This document shows positions 1 to 7,680 of a stretch of 7,680 bases of DNA, piece by piece; position 1 is the stretch's first letter; the number at the start of each line of letters is the position of its first letter. The notes under the pieces were generated by a model. It worked only from the letters and a program-made list of their open reading frames with translations, was not told where the DNA came from and searched no databases. The position numbers and the translations under genes are program-made. Source of the DNA: Mycobacterium sp. (GTDB taxonomy: Bacteria > Actinomycetota > Actinomycetes > Mycobacteriales > Mycobacteriaceae). The stretch covers positions 1-7,680 of the forward strand of contig JAHBAP020000371.1 in NCBI GenBank assembly GCA_018500005.2. Direction: 5' to 3'.

Positions 1-104
1 CCGTCGAGGAGGGCGACGTTTTCGTCGCGCAGGATTTCGGGCGCTCGGTGGGCGAGATTGCCGGTGGGCAATATCGGTCGCCGCGAGACGTGTTGCGCTG
101 CTAG
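1..104 (+). CDS. 3' end of an unidentified CDS (partial)
   Basis: The third forward frame is open from the left edge (first full codon at 3) to a TAG at 102-104. It gives 33 residues beginning VEEGDVFVAQDFG and ending RSPRDVLRC. About 26 of the 33 codons end in G or C, as in the surrounding genes, and the composition is that of a soluble globular protein. The other two forward frames stay open past 200 but are rich in Arg, Ser and Trp, as out-of-frame high-GC DNA usually is. I do not recognise the family and cannot name a function. No strong terminator follows; the nearest inverted repeat is a 5-bp CGAAT/ATTCG pair at 108-118. The gene is separated from the downstream transpeptidase by about 400 bp, so the two are unlikely to be co-transcribed. 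Confidence 0.4.
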   Translation, partial: VEEGDVFVAQDFGRSVGEIAGGQYRSPRDVLRC

Positions 105-395
105 GCGCGAATCATTCGAACTCGGCGCTGGGAAACCCCTTGGTCGGGGGCCGCGCCGGTGGAGTGAAGGCGTTCCACGACGTGCCGGCTTGCATGTCAG
201 CAGGCCAACGTTGTCGCAAGTGTAACAGGCGTCAATTCCAGCCCGGACCGGTCAGGTGCTGACGGCCGCACCAACGAGTCGGCTGCACGGGATTTCAGCA
301 AACCTGTCGCGGGTGGGTTCGCGCTGCCCGGAAGCTCCCTGCCAGCAGGGACGCGCACAATCGTGCTGCAGTCCGGGATTGTTTGCTAAAACTGC

Positions 396-410
396 ACCGA
401 CGCGGTCGGT
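396..410. promoter_or_regulatory. Short palindrome next to the ldt promoter (possible operator)
   Basis: ACCGAC-GCG-GTCGGT is a perfect dyad of two 6-bp arms around 3 bp. It ends 9 bp before the proposed -35 hexamer, a position where an activator or repressor could act. No regulator gene is visible nearby. In GC-rich DNA a 6-bp dyad can occur by chance, so this is only a candidate. Confidence 0.2.
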
Positions 411-419
411 CGCCGGGTT

Positions 420-447
420 CTGACTCGTCGCCGGCTGTGGCTATGAT
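420..447 (+). promoter_or_regulatory. Candidate sigma70/SigA-type promoter for the L,D-transpeptidase
   Basis: The -10 is TATGAT at 442-447 (five of six to TATAAT). CTGACT at 420-425 is a -35 with four of six matches to TTGACA, and the spacer is 16 bp. Transcription would begin near 453-456, giving a 5' leader of about 45-48 nt that carries the GGAG ribosome-binding site at 490-493. The position and match are good for a mycobacterial housekeeping promoter; this was found by inspection only. Confidence 0.5.
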
Positions 448-500
448 TCAAATGTCAACGGTGACGTCTGACCCTTCGACAACTGTCCTGGAGTGATTCG

Positions 501-1823
501 GTGAGGTTCCCCCGTCCTGCGCGGACGACCAGCCTGGTCGTCATCGGGCTGCTTTGCGGCGTCCTGGTCAGCGACGTTGCCGGGCTCCCGGGCTGCCACG
601 ACGGCTGCAAGACGGCCACCGCCACCGCCGCCTCGGCGGTCAAGCCGGCCCCGCCGAAGCCCCCACTGCTGGGGATCGCGCCGTTCAACGGCGCCGAGGA
701 CATCAACCCGCTCACCAAGCCGGTGGTCGACGTGGTGGACGGCAAGATCACCGACGTTTCCCTCTACGACGACTGGGGTAACTCCGTCGAGGGCAAGATC
801 AGCAAGGACGGCAAGTCCTGGGCGCCCACCCAGCGGCTGAACTTCGCCCGCAACTACACGTTGACGGTCAACAGCAAGAGCACCGCCGGAGTGCCGCTGT
901 CCCGGACGACAAACTTCAGCACTGTGGTGCCGAACAATTACATCCACCCCTATATCGAGGTGCAGGGCGGCTTCGCCCCCAACCCCGATGTGCGCTACGG
1001 CGTGGCCACCATCGTGATCGCCCACTTCGACGAGGCGATCGCAGACAAGGCGCTGGCCGAAAAGAACATGATCGTGCGAACCGATCCACCGGTGCAGGGC
1101 TCCTGGAACTGGATCAGCGACTCCGTCGCGCACTGGCGCCCCGAGCACTACTACGCGCCGGGTACCCGAATCAATGTTGATATCAACACATTTGGGCTCA
1201 AGCTCGGCGACGGCCTCTACGGCCAGGCCGACGCGAACGCGACCATCAACATCGGCGCCTCACACCTCACCGTCGCCAACGACATCACCAAACAGGTCAG
1301 CGTCTTCGACAACGGCCGGTTGGTGCGCACCATGCCGACCTCGATGGGGCGCGGTGGCACCTCGATCGTCGCCGGCAAGACCTTCCACTGGTGGACTCCG
1401 GCGGGCACCTACAGCGTGCTCGACAAGGGCGAGGTGGTCACCATGGACTCGCAGACTTACGGCATCCCGCTGGGCAACGCCGACAGTTACAAGCGCAAGA
1501 TCGGCTGGGCCACCCGGATCAGCACCGACGGCATCTATCTGCACGAACTCAACGACACCATCTGGGCACAGGGCAACACCAACCTGTCGCACGGTTGCCT
1601 GAACCTCTCCACCGACAACGCCAAGTGGTACTTCGACTTCGTTCAGCCCGGCGACCCGGTGGAGATCAAGTACACCGGCGGTCCGCCGCTCAACGTCGCC
1701 CAGGGTGGCAGTTGGTCTGTCCCGTGGAGCGACTGGGTCAAGGGCAGCGCCTTCTCGCCCCGCCAGGCGCAGCCGCCGGCCTCGGCGGTATCGGCGGAGA
1801 CCGCCGCCGCACCCGGCCCCTGA
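501..1823 (+). CDS. L,D-transpeptidase (Ig-Ig-YkuD, LdtMt2-like)
   Basis: This 440-residue exported enzyme should form 3-3 (mDAP-mDAP) cross-links in peptidoglycan and act on the outer face of the membrane. The GTG start lies 7 nt after GGAG (490-493). Residues 1-32 form a signal or anchor segment; LPGC at 29-32 could be a lipobox, though Pro at -2 is atypical. Two Ig-like domains span about 55-145 and 150-252, and the YkuD domain about 255-390. Active-site residues are His348, Ser363, His364 and Cys366 in SHGCLNLS. The 18-residue His-to-Cys spacing equals that of LdtMt2 (His336/Cys354). The Trp-rich segment at 403-416 (SWSVPWSDWVKGSA) matches the C-terminal subdomain, and a Pro/Ala-rich tail ends the protein. 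Compared with my recollection of LdtMt2, the region at about 287-309 is some ten residues longer. I cannot say which named mycobacterial Ldt it is orthologous to. Such enzymes are carbapenem targets. Confidence 0.92.
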   Translation: MRFPRPARTTSLVVIGLLCGVLVSDVAGLPGCHDGCKTATATAASAVKPAPPKPPLLGIAPFNGAEDINPLTKPVVDVVDGKITDVSLYDDWGNSVEGKISKDGKSWAPTQRLNFARNYTLTVNSKSTAGVPLSRTTNFSTVVPNNYIHPYIEVQGGFAPNPDVRYGVATIVIAHFDEAIADKALAEKNMIVRTDPPVQGSWNWISDSVAHWRPEHYYAPGTRINVDINTFGLKLGDGLYGQADANATINIGASHLTVANDITKQVSVFDNGRLVRTMPTSMGRGGTSIVAGKTFHWWTPAGTYSVLDKGEVVTMDSQTYGIPLGNADSYKRKIGWATRISTDGIYLHELNDTIWAQGNTNLSHGCLNLSTDNAKWYFDFVQPGDPVEIKYTGGPPLNVAQGGSWSVPWSDWVKGSAFSPRQAQPPASAVSAETAAAPGP

Positions 1824-1840
1824 CACAGTTCAGAGCCTCT

Positions 1841-1863
1841 CGGTTCAGCACCTCCCGGAACCG
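1841..1863 (+). terminator. Weak stem-loop after the L,D-transpeptidase gene
   Basis: CGGTTC (1841-1846) pairs perfectly with GAACCG (1858-1863) around an 11-nt loop, starting 18 bp after the ldt stop. There is no T-tract, so intrinsic termination is doubtful. It may attenuate read-through into the symporter gene. Confidence 0.22.
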
Positions 1864-1873
1864 CCCCGGCACA

Positions 1874-1926
1874 TTGCGCTGCGCAAAGTGCGCCCAAGTG
1901 GCAGGATTCGCAAATCCGTAGGGAGG
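1874..1926 (+). promoter_or_regulatory. Leader of the symporter gene: two dyads and a strong RBS
   Basis: Before the symporter ATG there is a perfect odd palindrome, TTGCGC-T-GCGCAA (1874-1886). A 5-bp hairpin follows (GGATT 1904-1908, loop CGCA, AATCC 1913-1917), then a strong Shine-Dalgarno GGGAGG at 1921-1926, 4 nt from the ATG at 1931. The hairpin sits 3 nt before the Shine-Dalgarno and could affect ribosome access. The palindrome could be an operator. I found no convincing -10/-35 pair here, so it is open whether the symporter has its own promoter or is read from the ldt promoter. Confidence 0.25.
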
Positions 1927-1930
1927 CGAC

Positions 1931-3388
1931 ATGGACTTCATTCAGGCCAACCTGATCGACCCGATCAGCAAGGTGCTCTACACCTATGTGCTGGTGTATC
2001 TGCTGGTTGCGGCGGGCATCTACTTCACCATCCGAACCAGGTTCGTTCAGTTCCGGTACTTCCGGCGGATGCTGGGGCAACTGTTCAACTCCCGCGTCGG
2101 CGACGGCGGCATCTCCTCGTTCCAGGCCTTCTGCGTCGGCCTGGCATCGCGGGTCGGCACCGGGAACATCGCCGGGGTCGCGATCGCCCTGACCGTGGGC
2201 GGACCGGGTGCCATCTTCTGGATGTGGGTAGTGGCGCTGATCGGTATGGCCACCGCGCTCATCGAGGCGACCCTGGCTCAGATCTTCAAAGTCCGCGCGC
2301 CCGACGGTACCTACCGCGGTGGCCCGGCCTTCTACATTCAGCGCGGTCTGAAGTCCCGGCCGGGCGGGGTCCTCTTCGCGGTGCTGTTGGTCTTCACCTT
2401 CGGGTTCGCGTTCAACATGGTGCAGGCCAACGCCATCGCCGACGTGCTCAACGCCTCGCATGCCGTCGAGGTGCATTACACCACCATCGGCCTGGTGGCG
2501 CTGGCTGCGCCGATCCTCTTCGGCGGTGTTCGCCGCGTCGCCAAGGTGGCCGAGGTGGTGCTGCCACTGATGGCGTTGGCCTACGTGTTGCTTGCCCTGG
2601 TGATTATCGCGCTCAACGTCGGTAACCTGCCGCACGCCTTCGCCCAGATCATCGGCGGTGCGTTCGGATTGGAGCAGATGGCGGGCGGGTTCACCGGCGG
2701 CGTTGCCGCCGCCATGCTCAACGGCGTCAAGCGCGGACTGTTCTCCAACGAGGCCGGCATGGGCAGCGCGCCCAACGTCGCGGCCACCGCCTCGGTGAGC
2801 CACCCGGTCAAGCAGGGTCTGATCCAGTCGCTGGGTGTATTCGTCGACACCATGATCATCTGCACCGCGACCGCGCTGATAATCCTGGTCTCCGGCCCGG
2901 AGATCTACGACCCGCACACACCCACGAAGATGGCGGGGGCTTCGCTGACGGCGTCGGCCGTCGCGGCCAGCCTGGGCTCATGGACCACCTGGCTGATGAC
3001 GATCCTGGTGTTCGTGTTGGCGTTCTCCTCGGTGCTGGGCAACTACGTCTACGCCGAGATCAACCTGTTCTTCCTCGGCGCGAACGAACGGGCGCTGACG
3101 ATATTCCGGGTGCTGGTGCTCGGTGCGATCGCTCTGGGCGCGGTCGCCAAGTTGTCGACGGTGTGGGACTTCGCCGACATCTCGATGGGACTGATGGCCA
3201 TCGTCAACCTGGTCGCCATCGTGCTGCTGGGCAAGTGGGCGTTCGCCTGCCTGCGCAACTACCACCTGCAGGCCGAAGGCGGCGAGGACCCGGTGTTCAT
3301 CGTCGAGGAGGCCAACATGCCCGGCGAACTCGAGGGCGACATCTGGAGCAAGGTCCAGCGGACCAAGTACACCAGCTGGTCGGCTTAA
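1931..3388 (+). CDS. Sodium:alanine symporter, AGCS family
   Basis: This 485-residue polytopic membrane protein belongs to the alanine/glycine:cation symporter family (Na_Ala_symp, also called AgcS or DagA). Members import alanine or glycine using the sodium gradient. The family signature GGPGAIFWMWVVALIG is complete at 90-105. Other conserved blocks are SRVGTGNIAGVA (73-84), in the region that lines the substrate site in family structures, and FSNEAGMGSAPN (271-282). Several hydrophobic helices run to about residue 440, followed by an acidic cytosolic tail (447-474). The length is normal for the family. The ATG has a strong GGGAGG Shine-Dalgarno 4 nt upstream. The haloalkane dehalogenase starts 9 bp after the TAA, indicating one transcript. 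Exact substrate (L-Ala, D-Ala or Gly) cannot be read from sequence; D- or L-Ala uptake would fit cell-wall metabolism beside an L,D-transpeptidase, but that is inference. Confidence 0.93.
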   Translation: MDFIQANLIDPISKVLYTYVLVYLLVAAGIYFTIRTRFVQFRYFRRMLGQLFNSRVGDGGISSFQAFCVGLASRVGTGNIAGVAIALTVGGPGAIFWMWVVALIGMATALIEATLAQIFKVRAPDGTYRGGPAFYIQRGLKSRPGGVLFAVLLVFTFGFAFNMVQANAIADVLNASHAVEVHYTTIGLVALAAPILFGGVRRVAKVAEVVLPLMALAYVLLALVIIALNVGNLPHAFAQIIGGAFGLEQMAGGFTGGVAAAMLNGVKRGLFSNEAGMGSAPNVAATASVSHPVKQGLIQSLGVFVDTMIICTATALIILVSGPEIYDPHTPTKMAGASLTASAVAASLGSWTTWLMTILVFVLAFSSVLGNYVYAEINLFFLGANERALTIFRVLVLGAIALGAVAKLSTVWDFADISMGLMAIVNLVAIVLLGKWAFACLRNYHLQAEGGEDPVFIVEEANMPGELEGDIWSKVQRTKYTSWSA

Positions 3389-3397
3389 ATAGCGGTT

Positions 3398-4300
3398 GTG
3401 GACTTTCTGCGCACACCGGATTCGCGTTTCGACAACCTTCAGGGCTACCCCTTCGCACCGCACTACCGCGATGTCACCGCCGCGGGCGCTCCGTCGCTGC
3501 GGATGCACTATGTCGACGTCGGTCCCCGCGACGGGTCGCCGGTGCTGCTGCTGCACGGTGAGCCGACCTGGAGTTACCTGTACCGCAACATGATTGCGCC
3601 GCTGCTGGCCGCGGGCAGGAGGGTGCTGGCGCCGGACCTGATCGGCTTCGGCAGGTCCGACAAGCCCACCCGGATCGGGGATTACACCTACCAGCGTCAC
3701 GTCGACTGGTTGACGGCGTGGATCACCGGATTGGATCTGCGGGATATCACCGTCGTGGTGCAGGACTGGGGCTCGCTTCTCGGCCTGCGGATCGCCGCCG
3801 AACATCCCGACCGGTTCTCGAAGTTGTTCATCGCCAACGGGTTTCTGCCGACCGCGGAATCGCCGACCCCGGCGGCGTTCTCGCTCTGGCGGGGGTTCGC
3901 CAAGTACTCGCCGCTGTTTCCGATCGGTCGGATCGTCGATACCGGTTGTGTCACTCGGCTTTCGGCCGACGTCCGCGCAGCCTACGACGCCCCCTATCCC
4001 GACCAGCGCTACAAGGCCGGGGCGCGGGCCTTTCCACTCCTGGTTCCCACCTCGCCCAACGATCCGGCAGTCCCGGCCAACCGTGCCGCCTGGGAGGTCC
4101 TGGGCCGCTGGGACAAGCCGGTGCTGTGTGTCTTCGGCACCCGCGACCCGATCCTGGGCCGGGCCGACGGTCCCCTCATTCGCCACATCCCCGGGGCGGC
4201 GGGGCAACCGCACGCCCGGATCAACGCGGGCCATTTCATCCAGGAGGACGCCGGTCCCGAACTGGCCCGCCGACTGCTGGACTGGGAAGCCTCGTTGTAG
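3398..4300 (+). CDS. dhmA: Haloalkane dehalogenase (HLD-I, Rv2296-like)
   Basis: This 300-residue cytosolic alpha/beta-hydrolase should cleave carbon-halogen bonds hydrolytically, giving an alcohol and halide. The nucleophile is Asp123 in VQDWG, with Trp124 as first halide-binding residue. HGEPTW at 53-58 forms the oxyanion hole and halide pocket. The acid is Asp250 in GTRDPILG, the position used by subfamily HLD-I (as Asp260 in DhlA). The base is His279 in AGHFIQE. Trp164 in the cap domain fits the second halide-stabilising Trp. The sequence closely follows, from memory, M. tuberculosis Rv2296 (also 300 residues), including the N-terminus [11 protein letters not shown], which supports the GTG start at 3398. 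There is no good Shine-Dalgarno, so translation is probably coupled to the symporter stop 9 bp upstream. The natural substrate of mycobacterial members is unknown. Confidence 0.93.
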
Positions 4301-4313
4301 GAAGGATGAATCC

Positions 4314-4682
4314 ATGATCGACTTCAATCTCGACACCAAGACCCGCGTACTGACCCTGCATCCCAAGGCGGCGCTGCAGAAGAGCGACTTCACCGCACTG
4401 GGTGCGGCCGTAGACCCGCAGATCGAGGAGCACGGCGACCTCAACGGTCTGATCCTCGACGTGGACAAGTTCCCCGGCTGGGACAGCTTCGGGGCGCTCG
4501 TGACCCACCTGCGCTTCGTCCGGGACCACCACAAGCACATCAAGAAGCTTGCGGTAGTCACCGACTCCCATCTCGGCGACGTCGCCGAACACCTTGCCTC
4601 GCATTTCATCTCCGCCGAGATCCGGCACTTCCCGGCCGACGAGATGATGCAGGCGCAAGCCTGGGTCGGTAGCCCCGCCTAG
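4314..4682 (+). CDS. SpoIIAA-like (STAS/Sec14-fold) protein
   Basis: This is a small soluble protein of 122 residues with the pattern of the SpoIIAA-like family (PF11964). It has an N-terminal beta hairpin (FNLDTKTRVLTLHPKAAL), a Leu-Ile-Leu-Asp-Val strand near residues 45-49, and a FPGWDSFGAL segment at 52-61. A conserved LRFVRDHHKHIKKLAVVTDS follows, then RHFPADEMMQAQAWV near the C-terminus. The family shares the SpoIIAA/Sec14-like fold; suggested roles include binding lipids or small ligands, and none is firmly established. The ATG at 4314 is chosen because GAAGGA at 4301-4306 stands 7 nt before it and the gene then begins 13 bp after the dehalogenase stop. The frame is open further upstream but only inside dhmA. 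Its place as third gene of the symporter-dehalogenase cluster suggests a shared function, which I cannot define. Confidence 0.85.
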   Translation: MIDFNLDTKTRVLTLHPKAALQKSDFTALGAAVDPQIEEHGDLNGLILDVDKFPGWDSFGALVTHLRFVRDHHKHIKKLAVVTDSHLGDVAEHLASHFISAEIRHFPADEMMQAQAWVGSPA

Positions 4683-4700
4683 CTCGCCCCCCAGCCGCGA

Positions 4701-4745
4701 TTTCGGCGCGGTTTTCGTCGCTCAGCGACGATTAGCGCGCCGAAA
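4701..4745. repeat. 45-bp palindromic repeat, left copy
   Basis: Outer arms TTTCGGCGCG (4701-4710) and CGCGCCGAAA (4736-4745) are perfect reverse complements. Inside them is a second perfect dyad, TCGTCGCT (4715-4722) and AGCGACGA (4724-4731), around one base. The two stems are separated by unpaired GTTT and TTAG. The whole could extrude as a cruciform or fold as an RNA hairpin. It lies between two convergent genes and overlaps the 3' end of the DUF559 gene: on the minus strand it encodes the final residues VSAR and the TAA stop (4734-4732). It may act as a bidirectional terminator, although neither side has a T-tract. A near-copy is at 5629-5673. Confidence 0.85.
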
Positions 4746-5592
4746 CTGCGGCGCGAATCTCCGCGAGAACCCGCTGCGGGTACTGCGTGATGTCCAGCCA
4801 GGTGAACCGCAGAATCTGCCAGCCCCGCAGCGCCAGCCAGTTCTGCCGCTTGCGGTCGTTCTGGAAGGCCTCCAGGTCGCTGTGGAATGCCCAGCCGTCG
4901 ATCTCGATGGCGACTTTCTGCTCGGTGAAGGCGATATCGATCTTGTACGGACCGACCGGGAAGTTGGCCTGCCACCCGCTGATTCCTGCGCCGCGAAGCA
5001 GTTGGATCAGCAGCCGCTCCGCCTCCGACCGCGCGCCGCCCGCAGCCGCTTCGAGGAGCCGCCTGGCTGCCGGCGCTCCGTAGCGCCCGGCGTTGCGGAG
5101 GTGCGCGAGCTGCAGGTCCGCGAGGCCCACCCGCCGTTGCAACGCCGAATCCATGACCTTGGGCCCTCCACCCCTGCGGGCTGAGGCCTCCAGCACCGTC
5201 AACGCAAGGCCGGTGACGCGCAGCCCGCGAGCTTCGAAAATGTCGTGCTCGTGGAGGTCGCGGCGGCGCACCCGAACTCCCGGCCGGGCGCGGCCGTGGC
5301 TGTTGCGTGGCACGGTCACTTCGATCGGGTCGGGTTCGATCGTCATGAGCCCAAGCCACCACGCCGCCGCGAGTCCACTGGCCGTGGCCCTGGCCCCCTG
5401 GCCCCATACGGCGGCGCGGATTCGGGCGGCCGGGGTGAACGGCCGGTCATCGACGAAGTAAACCCCCGCGGCGCAGCGGCGCCACTGCCCTGACCGCACT
5501 CGCCGCTGTATCGCCGATTGGCTCAGCCCGCTGCGGCGGGCTTGCGCCAGTGTGATGACGCCGTCCTGGCGGCGCAAAAAATAGCTGAGCAT
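4732..5592 (-). CDS. AbiEi-like winged helix + DUF559 nuclease-like protein
   Basis: This 286-residue protein has two parts. Residues 5-50 (RQDGVITLAQARRSGLSQ through VYFVDD) match the winged-helix N-terminal domain of AbiEi-type antitoxins, a likely DNA-binding module. Residues about 186-283 match DUF559, a Vsr-like PD-(D/E)XK endonuclease fold. Candidate metal/catalytic residues are Glu190, Asp219 (YKIDIAF), Glu230 and Asp232 (VAIEIDGWAFH), and His237. NDRKRQ (245-250) and the closing GWQILRFTW (257-265) are family-typical. All key acidic residues are present, so it looks intact. The ATG at 5592 is the first ATG or GTG of the frame; the preceding Shine-Dalgarno is weak. No cognate AbiEii toxin, methylase or other partner is next to it. 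Function is unknown; roles in DNA repair, restriction-like defence or mobile-element biology are possible. Identical-orientation palindromes lie at both ends. Confidence 0.87.
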   Translation of the reverse strand: MLSYFLRRQDGVITLAQARRSGLSQSAIQRRVRSGQWRRCAAGVYFVDDRPFTPAARIRAAVWGQGARATASGLAAAWWLGLMTIEPDPIEVTVPRNSHGRARPGVRVRRRDLHEHDIFEARGLRVTGLALTVLEASARRGGGPKVMDSALQRRVGLADLQLAHLRNAGRYGAPAARRLLEAAAGGARSEAERLLIQLLRGAGISGWQANFPVGPYKIDIAFTEQKVAIEIDGWAFHSDLEAFQNDRKRQNWLALRGWQILRFTWLDITQYPQRVLAEIRAAVSAR

Positions 5593-5628
5593 GCTTCGTT
5601 GGACGGCGAAGCGGCCCAGTCGGTTCCA

Positions 5629-5673
5629 TTTCGGCGCGTCTTTGACCGCTGAGCGACGATGAGCGCGCCGAAA
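5629..5673. repeat. 45-bp palindromic repeat, right copy
   Basis: This is the same length and orientation as the copy at 4701-4745. The arms TTTCGGCGCG (5629-5638) and CGCGCCGAAA (5664-5673) are identical to those of the left copy and extend by one pair here (A5628, T5674). The 25-bp centre matches the left copy at 18 positions, giving 38 of 45 overall by hand alignment. The inner dyad has decayed: AGCGACGA is kept (5652-5659), but its partner is TGACCGCT, leaving CGCT/AGCG. It lies 36 bp upstream of the DUF559 start codon and 18 bp after the stop of the SDR gene, so on the minus strand both copies sit at the 3' end of a gene. Confidence 0.85.
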
Positions 5674-5691
5674 TCGCCGAGGGGGGAGGGG

Positions 5692-6462
5692 TCAGGGGCG
5701 CGGCCAGGTCTCCGGCAGGCCGTGCCCGCCGTCGGCCACCAGCACCGCCCCGGTGACGAACGAGGCCGACTCGTGCGCCAGGAACGCCACGCAGGCGGCG
5801 ATCTCGGCGGTGGTGCCACTTCGGCCGATCGGCCCGGCCGCGGCGGCGGAGGCCTCGAAGTCCAGTTGGGATCCGGTCGCGACGTAGCCGGGGGCGACGA
5901 CATTGACCGTCACCCCCTGGCCGACGACCTCGAGTGCCAGCGCGCGGGACAGTCCCACCAGGCCGGCCTTGGCGGCGGTGTAGGTGGACTGGCCGGGCAT
6001 CGCATTTACGGTGCCCGTCGTCGACCCCACCGACACGATCCGCCCGTACCCGGCCGCGGTCATCACCGGCACCACCGCCCGGCACATCAGGAACGCGGTG
6101 GTCAGGTTGCGCGCGATCGCGGTGTCCCATTGCGGCAACGACAATTGCGCGACGTCGCCGTCGGCGTCCCATCCCGAGGACACCGACGTCATGCCGGCGT
6201 TGTTGATCAGGACGTCCAATCTGCCAAAGCGGTCCAGTGCCGCGCGGACCAGGTTCTCGGCGCTGCCATCGACGGTCAGATCTCCGACCACACCGACCGC
6301 GGCCTCACCCAGTTCAGCGGCGCGGTCATGTACCCGGTCCGAGGTCGCGCCCAGTACTACCCGGGCACCTTCGACCACCAGTTCGCGGGCGACCGCCATA
6401 CCGATGCCGTCGGAGGCGCCGGCCCCGGTGATGACGGCGACTCGGCCGGCGAAGCGGGACAC
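5692..6462 (-). CDS. Short-chain dehydrogenase/reductase (classical SDR)
   Basis: This is a 256-residue cytosolic NAD(P)-dependent oxidoreductase of the classical SDR type. The nucleotide-binding glycine motif is TGAGASDGIG (12-21), two residues longer than the common TGxxxGIG. NNAG is at 87-90. The catalytic tetrad is Asn119, Ser147, Tyr161 and Lys165 (YTAAK). PGYVATGS (191-198) and the closing GAVLVADGG (238-246) are family-typical, as is the length. The start is GTG at 6462: a TAG two codons upstream in the same frame rules out a longer protein, and MSRFAGRVAVITG is a normal SDR beginning. It starts 10 bp after the crotonase stop, so the two are very likely co-transcribed. The substrate is probably a hydroxy- or ketoacyl-type or other secondary alcohol/ketone compound, inferred only from the neighbour. 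Confidence 0.92.
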   Translation of the reverse strand: MSRFAGRVAVITGAGASDGIGMAVARELVVEGARVVLGATSDRVHDRAAELGEAAVGVVGDLTVDGSAENLVRAALDRFGRLDVLINNAGMTSVSSGWDADGDVAQLSLPQWDTAIARNLTTAFLMCRAVVPVMTAAGYGRIVSVGSTTGTVNAMPGQSTYTAAKAGLVGLSRALALEVVGQGVTVNVVAPGYVATGSQLDFEASAAAAGPIGRSGTTAEIAACVAFLAHESASFVTGAVLVADGGHGLPETWPRP

Positions 6463-6472
6463 CCTCTACCGC

Positions 6473-7165
6473 TTACAGGCCGAGTTCTTTGTGCATGTTG
6501 TCGATGCCGTGCCGCATGGCGTCGAGAGTCTCCTGGCGGACCCGCATCTTGGATGCGTAGTGGGCCTGGGCGTTGAGGGTGGCCGCGAACTCGTTGGCCG
6601 CCTCGACGGCGCGCTCGAGAACCAGGTCGGGCATCGCGAGTTCGTCCACCCAACCGCCCGACACCGCGGTGTCGGTGAGGTAGACCCTGGACAGTCCCAC
6701 CGCCTGCTGGTAGGCCGAACGGGTCAGCCGCAGCTTGAGGACCTCCAGACCCGGCCAGGGAATGACCATGCCGTTGATCACCTCGTTGGCGTGAAACTTG
6801 TAGCCCGGGGCGGCAATTCGGTGATCGACGCTGCAGGCCAGGAACGCCCCCATCGCGATGGCATGGCCGGTGATGGCCGCCACGACCGGCTTGCGGAACG
6901 ACAGCAGTCGGTGGGACAACTCGAAGCCGGCCTTGAGCATCTCAAGTGCGGCCTGGGGATCCCCGGATCCGAACCCCTTGAGGTCGAAGCCGCCGCTGAA
7001 CACCTTGTGGTTGCCCGCGAGGACCACGGCGCCGGCGCCGTCGGACTCGGCCTGGTCGAAAGCCTTGTTGATCTCGCCCAGCATGGCCGGGCCGAGAACG
7101 TTGACCTTGCCGTCGTCCATGGTGATGACGGCGATCGTCTCGTCCCGGCGGTAACTGACGCTCAT
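6473..7165 (-). CDS. Crotonase / enoyl-CoA hydratase family protein (EchA3-like)
   Basis: This 230-residue protein has the crotonase fold and acts on acyl-CoA thioesters. It closely resembles, from memory, M. tuberculosis EchA3 (Rv0632c, about 231 residues). Oxyanion-hole elements are VFSGGFDLKG (55-64) and HAIAMGA (101-107). Against rat enoyl-CoA hydratase, the position of catalytic Glu144 is Phe108, while Glu128 corresponds to Glu164; the 20-residue spacing is preserved. With only one glutamate, ordinary hydration of enoyl-CoA is uncertain, and an isomerase, hydrolase or other crotonase reaction is possible. The ATG at 7165 has an AAGGAG Shine-Dalgarno (7176-7171) with a 5-nt spacer. It is the first gene of a minus-strand operon with the SDR. 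It lacks the C-terminal extension of typical 260-residue hydratases, as do other EchA3-like proteins. Confidence 0.9.
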   Translation of the reverse strand: MSVSYRRDETIAVITMDDGKVNVLGPAMLGEINKAFDQAESDGAGAVVLAGNHKVFSGGFDLKGFGSGDPQAALEMLKAGFELSHRLLSFRKPVVAAITGHAIAMGAFLACSVDHRIAAPGYKFHANEVINGMVIPWPGLEVLKLRLTRSAYQQAVGLSRVYLTDTAVSGGWVDELAMPDLVLERAVEAANEFAATLNAQAHYASKMRVRQETLDAMRHGIDNMHKELGL

Positions 7166-7263
7166 CGATGCTCCTTACTCGTGGTGGCCCTGACGTTACC
7201 GAGGCCGCCGCGACCGGCCGCGACCGACTGGTGCTGACATTTCTCAGGAAAGCTTGAGGTCGC

Positions 7264-7276
7264 TACGATCGGTACA
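7264..7276 (+). promoter_or_regulatory. Candidate -10 element giving a leaderless transcript
   Basis: TACGAT (7264-7269) fits the mycobacterial -10 pattern TANNNT and ends 6 bp before the A of ATG 7276, so transcription would start at or beside the start codon. No Shine-Dalgarno is present at normal distance; the nearest GAGG is at 7256-7259. Both facts favour leaderless initiation, which is common in mycobacteria. No clear -35 is seen at standard spacing. Confidence 0.45.
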
Positions 7277-7645
7277 TGGGTGCGTCGGGGGCCATCGGGC
7301 GGGTCGGCGGACTCGCCGTGGCCCTCGGTATCGGTGCTGTCGCGGCCACCGGCTCCCTCGGCGTCGCCGCCGCGGAACCCGCCCCGGACACATCGCCCTC
7401 GACTGCGGATTCGACCTCTTCCGTACCCCGTGGCGCGCGCCCGGACCGCACCCGCGCCGGGCGCGGCCTGGCCGAAACATCAAGGCGCACAAGGAAGAAC
7501 AACGAACCATCCCCGGCGGCGGCCCGCCCGGCCAAGTCCGGTCCGGCTGTCGAGAATCCAGCAGCGACGGAAGTCGAGCCCCGCGTTGCGCTCCAGGCGC
7601 AGGCCAACCCGTCTCGGTTGGTCTCGCCGGTTACGACCACCGTTC
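7276..7645 (+). CDS. N-terminal fragment of an exported low-complexity protein (truncated by contig end)
   Basis: The frame opens at ATG 7276 and has no stop to the window edge, but genuine sequence ends near 7645, giving 123 residues. Residues 1-33 form a signal peptide: a hydrophobic core of Gly, Ala, Val and Leu ending VAAA before EPAP, with likely cleavage after Ala33. The n-region is weakly basic (only Arg9). Residues 34-123 are a disordered linker rich in Ser, Thr, Pro, Ala and Arg. This start (IGRVGGLAVALGIGA) resembles the N-terminal module that I recall on large mycobacterial exported proteins with varied C-terminal domains (Ig-like, lipase or other). The functional domain lies beyond the window, so no role can be assigned. 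In-frame residues after about 123 (SYTHLRAHET) are translated adapter. It is divergent from the crotonase operon, with 110 bp between the starts. Confidence 0.7.
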
Positions 7646-7679
7646 CTGTCTCTTATACACATCTCCGAGCCCACGAGAC
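7646..7679 (+). other. Illumina Nextera transposase adapter (sequencing artefact)
   Basis: Positions 7646-7664 read CTGTCTCTTATACACATCT, the complement of the 19-bp Tn5 mosaic end. Positions 7665-7679 read CCGAGCCCACGAGAC, the i7-side Nextera adapter. The base at 7680 would be the first index base. This is untrimmed library adapter at a contig end and not part of the organism. Its translations, SYTHLRAHET on the plus strand and SEMCIRDR on the minus strand, are peptides known to contaminate predicted proteomes. Confidence 0.98.
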
Positions 7680-7680
7680 G

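Follow-up and report, generated by a model that had tools for sequence, protein, structure and literature searches.

A mycobacterial DUF559 nuclease-like gene enclosed by 53-bp palindromes that its protein is predicted to recognize

In a 7,680-nucleotide stretch of a Mycobacterium sp. genome (GenBank assembly GCA_018500005.2, contig JAHBAP020000371.1, positions 1 to 7,680; hereafter the window), the gene of a predicted nuclease of 286 residues (4732-5592, minus strand), with a predicted AbiEi-type DNA-binding region and a predicted Vsr/EDxHD-fold domain, is enclosed by two copies of one palindrome. On balance, we favor the view that gene and palindromes form a single unit (palindrome-gene-palindrome). 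Its protein is predicted to bind the 53-bp palindrome of the unit and likely cuts at it, which would spread and rewrite the palindrome across the genome. This reading is based on six observations: the bracketing of the gene, the resemblance in type of most dispersed palindromes to the resident ones, base-pair covariation, the co-variation of palindrome and protein, the occurrence of one orthologous site in three states, and the conservation of putative active-site residues.

An earlier note on this DNA, made from the letters alone, had placed two 45-bp palindromes with identical 10-bp arms at 4701-4745 and 5629-5673. Both copies are present as described, and the 38 of 45 matching positions counted by hand agree with the 85% direct identity over 46 nt. 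The arm pattern TTTCGGCGCG-N25-CGCGCCGAAA has two exact matches in the window, whereas 200 dinucleotide-preserving shuffles gave none. Comparison with relatives showed that the family palindrome is 53 bp long, made of two 24-bp halves and a 5-bp centre, with ends partly decayed in the window. The upstream copy (5625-5677) lies 32 bp from the start codon and is the predicted binding site of the protein. The downstream copy (4697-4749) contains the stop codon of the gene (4732-4734), so that the last residues of the protein are encoded by palindrome sequence; as plus-strand RNA, it folds with -34.8 kcal/mol (z -6.0). The whole unit (4697-5677) sits between convergent genes, 14 bp from the stop codon of each (SpoIIAA-like, 4680-4682; short-chain dehydrogenase/reductase [SDR], 5692-5694).

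The bracketing recurs in relatives. A protein search of 118 genomes of the same genus found the gene in 49 of them, with 64 copies at 54-100% identity, and the next matches reached at most 34%; one copy is frameshifted and one truncated. The copy at G095:C4:69458-70311 looks broken, matching as two overlapping pieces. A palindrome was found upstream of 60 of the 64 genes and downstream of 41. At 80 named gene loci, fetched separately from the 118-genome set, it was present upstream in 72, downstream in 52 and on both sides in 47, compared with 2 and 3 in chance windows of equal width. In 55 of 72 cases the upstream palindrome started 94-96 bp ahead of the start codon, and in 42 of 52 the downstream one lay at the same offset; the ends were mostly of the form GYGATTT...AAATCRC. 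The two flanks were also tested for similarity independently of any pattern, with shuffles as control. Among the close genes, 46 of 62 passed (two of the 64, a frameshifted and a truncated copy, were omitted), and among the distant genes 17 of 22 (three of the 25 were omitted because a wrong reading frame had been taken). The cross-gene control of this test was high for the close genes (154/491), because their palindromes are related, and 17/170 for the distant ones. The distant paralogues (about 30% identical) use other palindromes, mostly with CGAG...CTCG ends; their CGAGTGGCC family is lightly dispersed (1-3 copies in 9 of 118 genomes by a strict pattern). In a class-wide sample, matching flank repeats were found at 21 of 28 loci, with a cut-off of 18 set by hand (single shuffles reached 23). 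Twenty-four of these loci lie outside the genus of the window, and 18 of them pass. An obvious palindrome on both sides was seen at six loci outside the genus (L276, L279, L283, L285, L287 and L293), and the remaining matches include plain and low-complexity repeats.

The earlier note had raised the idea that the palindrome accompanies DUF559 genes. Palindromes are scattered genome-wide in relatives, but are strongly enriched both in genomes that carry the gene and at the gene itself. The exact arms were present in 24 of the 118 genomes, with up to 27 copies, and a looser pattern (GCGATTT...AAATCGC, one mismatch) gave 790 copies in 59 genomes, some single copies being probably due to chance. 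A chance origin of the palindromes was rejected, since the shuffles were empty and the reversed-pattern control gave 0 copies with exact arms and hits in one genome with the looser pattern. Copy number ranged from 0 to 95 per genome, with 89 copies in G081. At least three palindromes were found in 41 of 49 genomes with the gene subfamily versus 7 of 69 without it (Fisher P = 2e-16). The window genome itself, which is 72% complete, has at least three further copies elsewhere (on C427, C333 and C492). Orphan repeats occur as well: G054, G098, G042 and G043 carry 6-17 family palindromes without a close-subfamily gene (10 by exact arms in G098). In G040, which has 16 family palindromes, the gene start survives as an inward-running remnant of 27 residues at 1994-2074 of L188 (G040:C37), and behind it, at the contig end, lies the beginning of a GTGGAG-type palindrome; the remnant fits gene loss after palindrome dispersal.

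Palindrome arms differ between species, and the dispersed copies tend to share the type of the resident gene. Among the 50 copies listed for G081 (89 in total), 49 carry the arms of its two genes (47 of 48 without the two gene-linked copies). For G068, the arms of 19 of 25 listed copies are those of its three genes, or of 14 of 20 once gene-linked copies are set aside. The other six are of a fourth type (CGGCGTG/A-GTTCGTCACG) to which none of the genes found in this genome corresponds, as would fit loss of a gene after its palindromes had dispersed. When 38 dispersed copies were ranked against the gene palindromes of 46 genomes, those of the copy's own genome came first for 21 (6 ties, counted as first) and in the top three for 27. 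The 38 derive from 46 dispersed loci, of which three gave no 53-mer and five belong to gene-less genomes; 21 of the 46 had been chosen for a single arm type and are therefore biased. A second gene in G027 is accompanied by 10 copies of its type, of which two lie at the gene. The sister genome G099, whose flanks are 92-98% alike, lacks that gene, and no copy of the type was obtained from it.

We then consider how the palindrome changes. Pairing of the arms was maintained as they changed: among 96 distinct copies, 79-100% are paired at positions 8, 9 and 11-14, versus 44-64% after shuffling, and these positions show 2-4 Watson-Crick types. At the main site, the palindrome followed the protein when flank was controlled for (partial Mantel r 0.29, p 0.001, 33 of 36 genes), and not the flank when protein was controlled for (-0.08). 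The partial r was 0.26 and 0.25 for the AbiEi-like part and 0.10 (p 0.07) for the nuclease part. Column by column, inner-stem positions 19, 20 and 22 are linked to residues 25, 26 and 29, which lie in the first part of the predicted recognition helix (residues 25-34; 5491-5520, minus strand), and outer-stem positions 8-14 mainly to residues 97-100 in a loop (residues 97-103; 5284-5304, minus strand). The main links recurred in 70 representatives under 80% identity, H99-13 and S26-22 leading in both halves of the data. For the eight links tested, H99-13, S26-22 and Q25/Q29-19/20 among them, none of 300 permutations was as strong, but permutation does not remove shared ancestry. Residues 284-285 were also linked, because their codons lie inside the downstream palindrome.

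The sole Pfam matches of the protein, AbiEi_4, DUF559 and MTES_1575, are all above the Pfam cut-offs, and its N-terminal region matches the AbiEi models of PADLOC. In the predicted model (predicted local distance difference test [pLDDT] 88), residues 1-184 match an AbiEi antitoxin, and residues 187-286 (4735-5034, minus strand) match the catalytic domains of I-Bth0305I, Vsr and NGO0050. In this nuclease domain, E192, D219, E230, D232, H237 and D246 are conserved: all are identical in 62 of 62 close relatives except D219 (61 of 62), and in an alignment including the distant paralogues these putative active-site residues are invariant except H237. We assigned individual residues to the EDxHD motif by our own reading. 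The ratio of nonsynonymous to synonymous substitution rates was 0-0.19 in ten gene pairs.

Orthologous sites were found in several states. At one convergent-gene site compared at 30 loci, 8 hold the unit (one of them cut by a contig end), 7 a solo family palindrome, 3 another hairpin and 7 no palindrome, and 5 could not be assigned. At two of these loci, L165 (G114) and L166 (G107), the hairpin is of another family, with ends like ATTGTGAATC...GATTCACAAT, and may belong to another nuclease. Of the solo copies, five are in genomes that have the gene; those of G081, G049 and G028 rank first to their own genome, that of G039 second, behind its sister species, and that of G095 fourth. G027 has its own type at two further sites, where solo palindromes of different types stand in other species: in G085 and G019 the arms match those of the resident genes, in G099 the outer arm agrees with that of its gene, and in G082 the palindrome mismatches the gene. 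Thus, either the sites are common and their sequences were rewritten, or they were refilled repeatedly. The idea of a mobile cassette in the earlier note, with empty sites retaining a single copy, is borne out in part: the gene is often syntenic at one site, but orthologous empty and solo states exist at another. The 64 genes occupy about 12 places, 36 of them a single one, indicating that the gene is mostly inherited in place, and it seems to be the palindrome, more than the gene cassette, that spreads most.

Taken together, the covariation of the arms, the co-variation of protein and palindrome and the site states give good support to recognition, and the protein very likely reads this palindrome; from here, we infer cutting and movement. 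The protein probably cuts at the palindrome, and it is rather likely that this cutting drives palindrome spread and rewriting. Each of the two 24-bp half-sites would be occupied by an AbiEi-like module, in the manner of AbiEi on its 23-bp inverted repeats, and the nuclease would break the DNA at or near palindromes. During repair, other palindromes or new sites at gene 3' ends could then receive a copy of the resident type, and recombination between the two flanking copies would leave a solo palindrome. In the boldest form of this reading, taken up again below, specificity would follow a two-part code, with the recognition helix reading the inner stem and loop residues 97-100 the outer stem. 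Protein and palindrome would change together, each genomic copy being rewritten to the new type.

The placement of dispersed copies bears on the rival explanation that survives best. By simple gene calling, 18 of 41 dispersed copies lie between convergent genes, 20 between tandem genes, 1 between divergent genes and 1 within a gene, and 1 is unclear. These 41 come from 53 loci, 12 of which had been removed by hand because they were gene-linked, duplicated or taken for chance hits; the removal of one of the 12, L060, was unjustified, as it is a family copy. Forty of the 41 face the 3' end of a gene, 33 of these at most 12 bp from the stop codon. At copies such as L007, L024 and L083, the GTGA/GCGA end supplies or abuts the stop codon of the preceding gene, on both sides if the genes are convergent. 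The protein might be an AbiEi-type autoregulator, with the upstream copy as its operator, the dispersed copies as bidirectional terminators and the nuclease otherwise used, for instance in defence. AbiEi proteins autoregulate through inverted repeats upstream of their genes, and the repeats bound by AbiEi are a pair of 23 bp each with a 3-bp gap (PMC7319586), a layout close to the 24-bp halves and 5-bp centre of the palindrome in the window. Consistent with this, the near-fixed upstream copy, taken alone, could be an ordinary operator, and a terminator role, to which the strong RNA hairpins also point, could account for the placement of the palindromes; both weigh against the reading that we favor. 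The second copy at the end of the gene is unexplained in this way, as are the tendency of arm types to match the resident gene, the site states and the conserved active-site residues, and 7 of the 30 orthologous loci at one site have no palindrome at all. We therefore regard an operator and terminator system as possible but rather unlikely.

Much less probable is that other machinery, such as a Y1 transposase, general recombination or end joining, spreads the palindromes, the DUF559 gene being a mere landing place. A few gene-less genomes do have palindromes, and similar pairs flank unrelated genes: at L382 (G081) and L390 (G037), they lie about 0.95 kb apart with no DUF559 match between them. 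The frame enclosed at L390 is, by our own reading, an amidohydrolase-like candidate. Y1 transposases, however, were not associated with the palindromes (genomes with three or more copies: 8 of 21 against 40 of 97, P = 1), and a RAYT or IS200 element as the mover was rejected for lack of association with palindrome-rich genomes. The near-fixed distance between gene and palindrome, the residue-base co-variation and the different palindrome families at distant paralogues also speak against it. The least probable explanation, an anti-phage nuclease for which the chromosomal palindromes mark self or act as decoys, agrees with the PADLOC match and the nuclease fold but not with the lack of a defence partner among the six window genes scanned, the single plasmid relative and no phage relative reaching at least 80% coverage, or the copy numbers of 0 to 95.

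Several further observations weigh against a spreading unit. Neither cleavage nor excision nor a new insertion was observed. One site accounts for more than half of the genes, which look vertically inherited. No target-site duplication was readable, as the single clean absence (the L243 site in G099) has diverged flanks and the others hold remnants or other sequence. At least three palindromes occur without the gene in G014, G040, G042, G043, G052, G054 and G098, of which G054 and G098 are single-contig genomes where no separate remnant search was made. Conversely, the strict pattern gave 0 copies in seven gene-positive genomes, five of which have an altered-end palindrome at the gene. For 17 of the 38 ranked dispersed copies another genome ranked ahead of their own, and for 11 their own was not among the top three. 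No excess of covariation was seen at pairs 16 and 25, the weaker residue-base links failed to recur in both data halves, and 6 of the 30 strongest links fall in the nuclease part.

Among known systems, the earlier note had pointed to a loose analogy with repetitive extragenic palindromes and their RAYT proteins (REP/RAYT) and with homing. The analogy holds up well in the dispersed copies that mostly resemble the resident type, the homing-endonuclease fold, the co-variation and the empty and solo sites; with the predicted cutting and movement, the unit would work like a REP/RAYT system built on an unrelated nuclease. As in REPtrons, a gene mostly inherited with the species is flanked by the palindromes that it supposedly moves, extragenic copies of the palindromes are dispersed, and there are several types per genome, each beside its own RAYT in the REPtrons (PMC3116915, PMC3733652). 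Unlike in REPtrons, the protein has an AbiEi-type region and a Vsr/EDxHD fold instead of being an HUH/Y1 (IS200-like) transposase, the ends are mostly GCGATTT...AAATCGC without a GTAG tag, the palindrome is 53 bp long with two half-sites, and the hosts are Actinomycetes. The predicted fold, with its conserved and putatively catalytic acidic and His residues, resembles that of EDxHD homing endonucleases (I-Bth0305I) and Vsr, but the gene is not in an intron, gene or intein; it lies between convergent genes with a palindrome kept on both sides, so that the recognition palindrome is present at both ends, and its protein has an AbiEi-type reader. The modelled AbiEi fold is shared with the antitoxin of type IV AbiE systems (Rv2827c), from which the unit differs in the extra nuclease domain, the sites dispersed genome-wide and the lack of an adjoining AbiEii nucleotidyltransferase toxin gene in the window. 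Caulobacter VsrA also has a DUF559 domain with a Vsr-like fold and is linked to DNA damage; it was studied with a cytosine methyltransferase, and "palindrom-" has 0 occurrences in the main text (PMC12907096).

The remainder of the window encodes the SpoIIAA-like and SDR neighbours, an alpha/beta hydrolase, an enoyl-CoA hydratase and a Na:Ala symporter, and Rfam gave no match in it at gathering scores. The same place differs in G025, where the neighbouring SDR genes are present without a DUF559 match or a family palindrome. Positions 7646-7680, at the contig end, resemble what we take to be an Illumina Nextera adapter; the last 35 bases and the open reading frames running into them are thus probably not genomic.

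AbiEi-DUF559 proteins are widespread in Actinomycetes. Matches to an alignment of them (E <= 0.001, not all full length) were found in 127 of 148 sampled Actinomycetes genomes, often many per genome. Carriage by plasmids or phages was rejected: of 19 plasmid records with a match, one, the Tsukamurella plasmid NZ_LR134454.1 (121908-122738, 41% identical), covers at least 80% of the query, and the two phage matches cover 21%. We did not find the palindrome family described in the open-access literature, or a title or abstract opening linking DUF559 to palindromes. There is about an even chance that these units represent a new class of selfish element across Actinomycetes, in which a homing-type nuclease has its own operator palindrome as the spreading unit, follows a two-part code and has all copies rewritten. 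If so, many AbiEi-DUF559 proteins would own palindrome families in the gaps behind genes, and the REP/RAYT life style would have been invented a second time, independently. Tens of natural nuclease-palindrome pairs could then be compared side by side as a protein-DNA recognition code, and since the changes can be read in parallel, the specificity would be predictable and directly testable.
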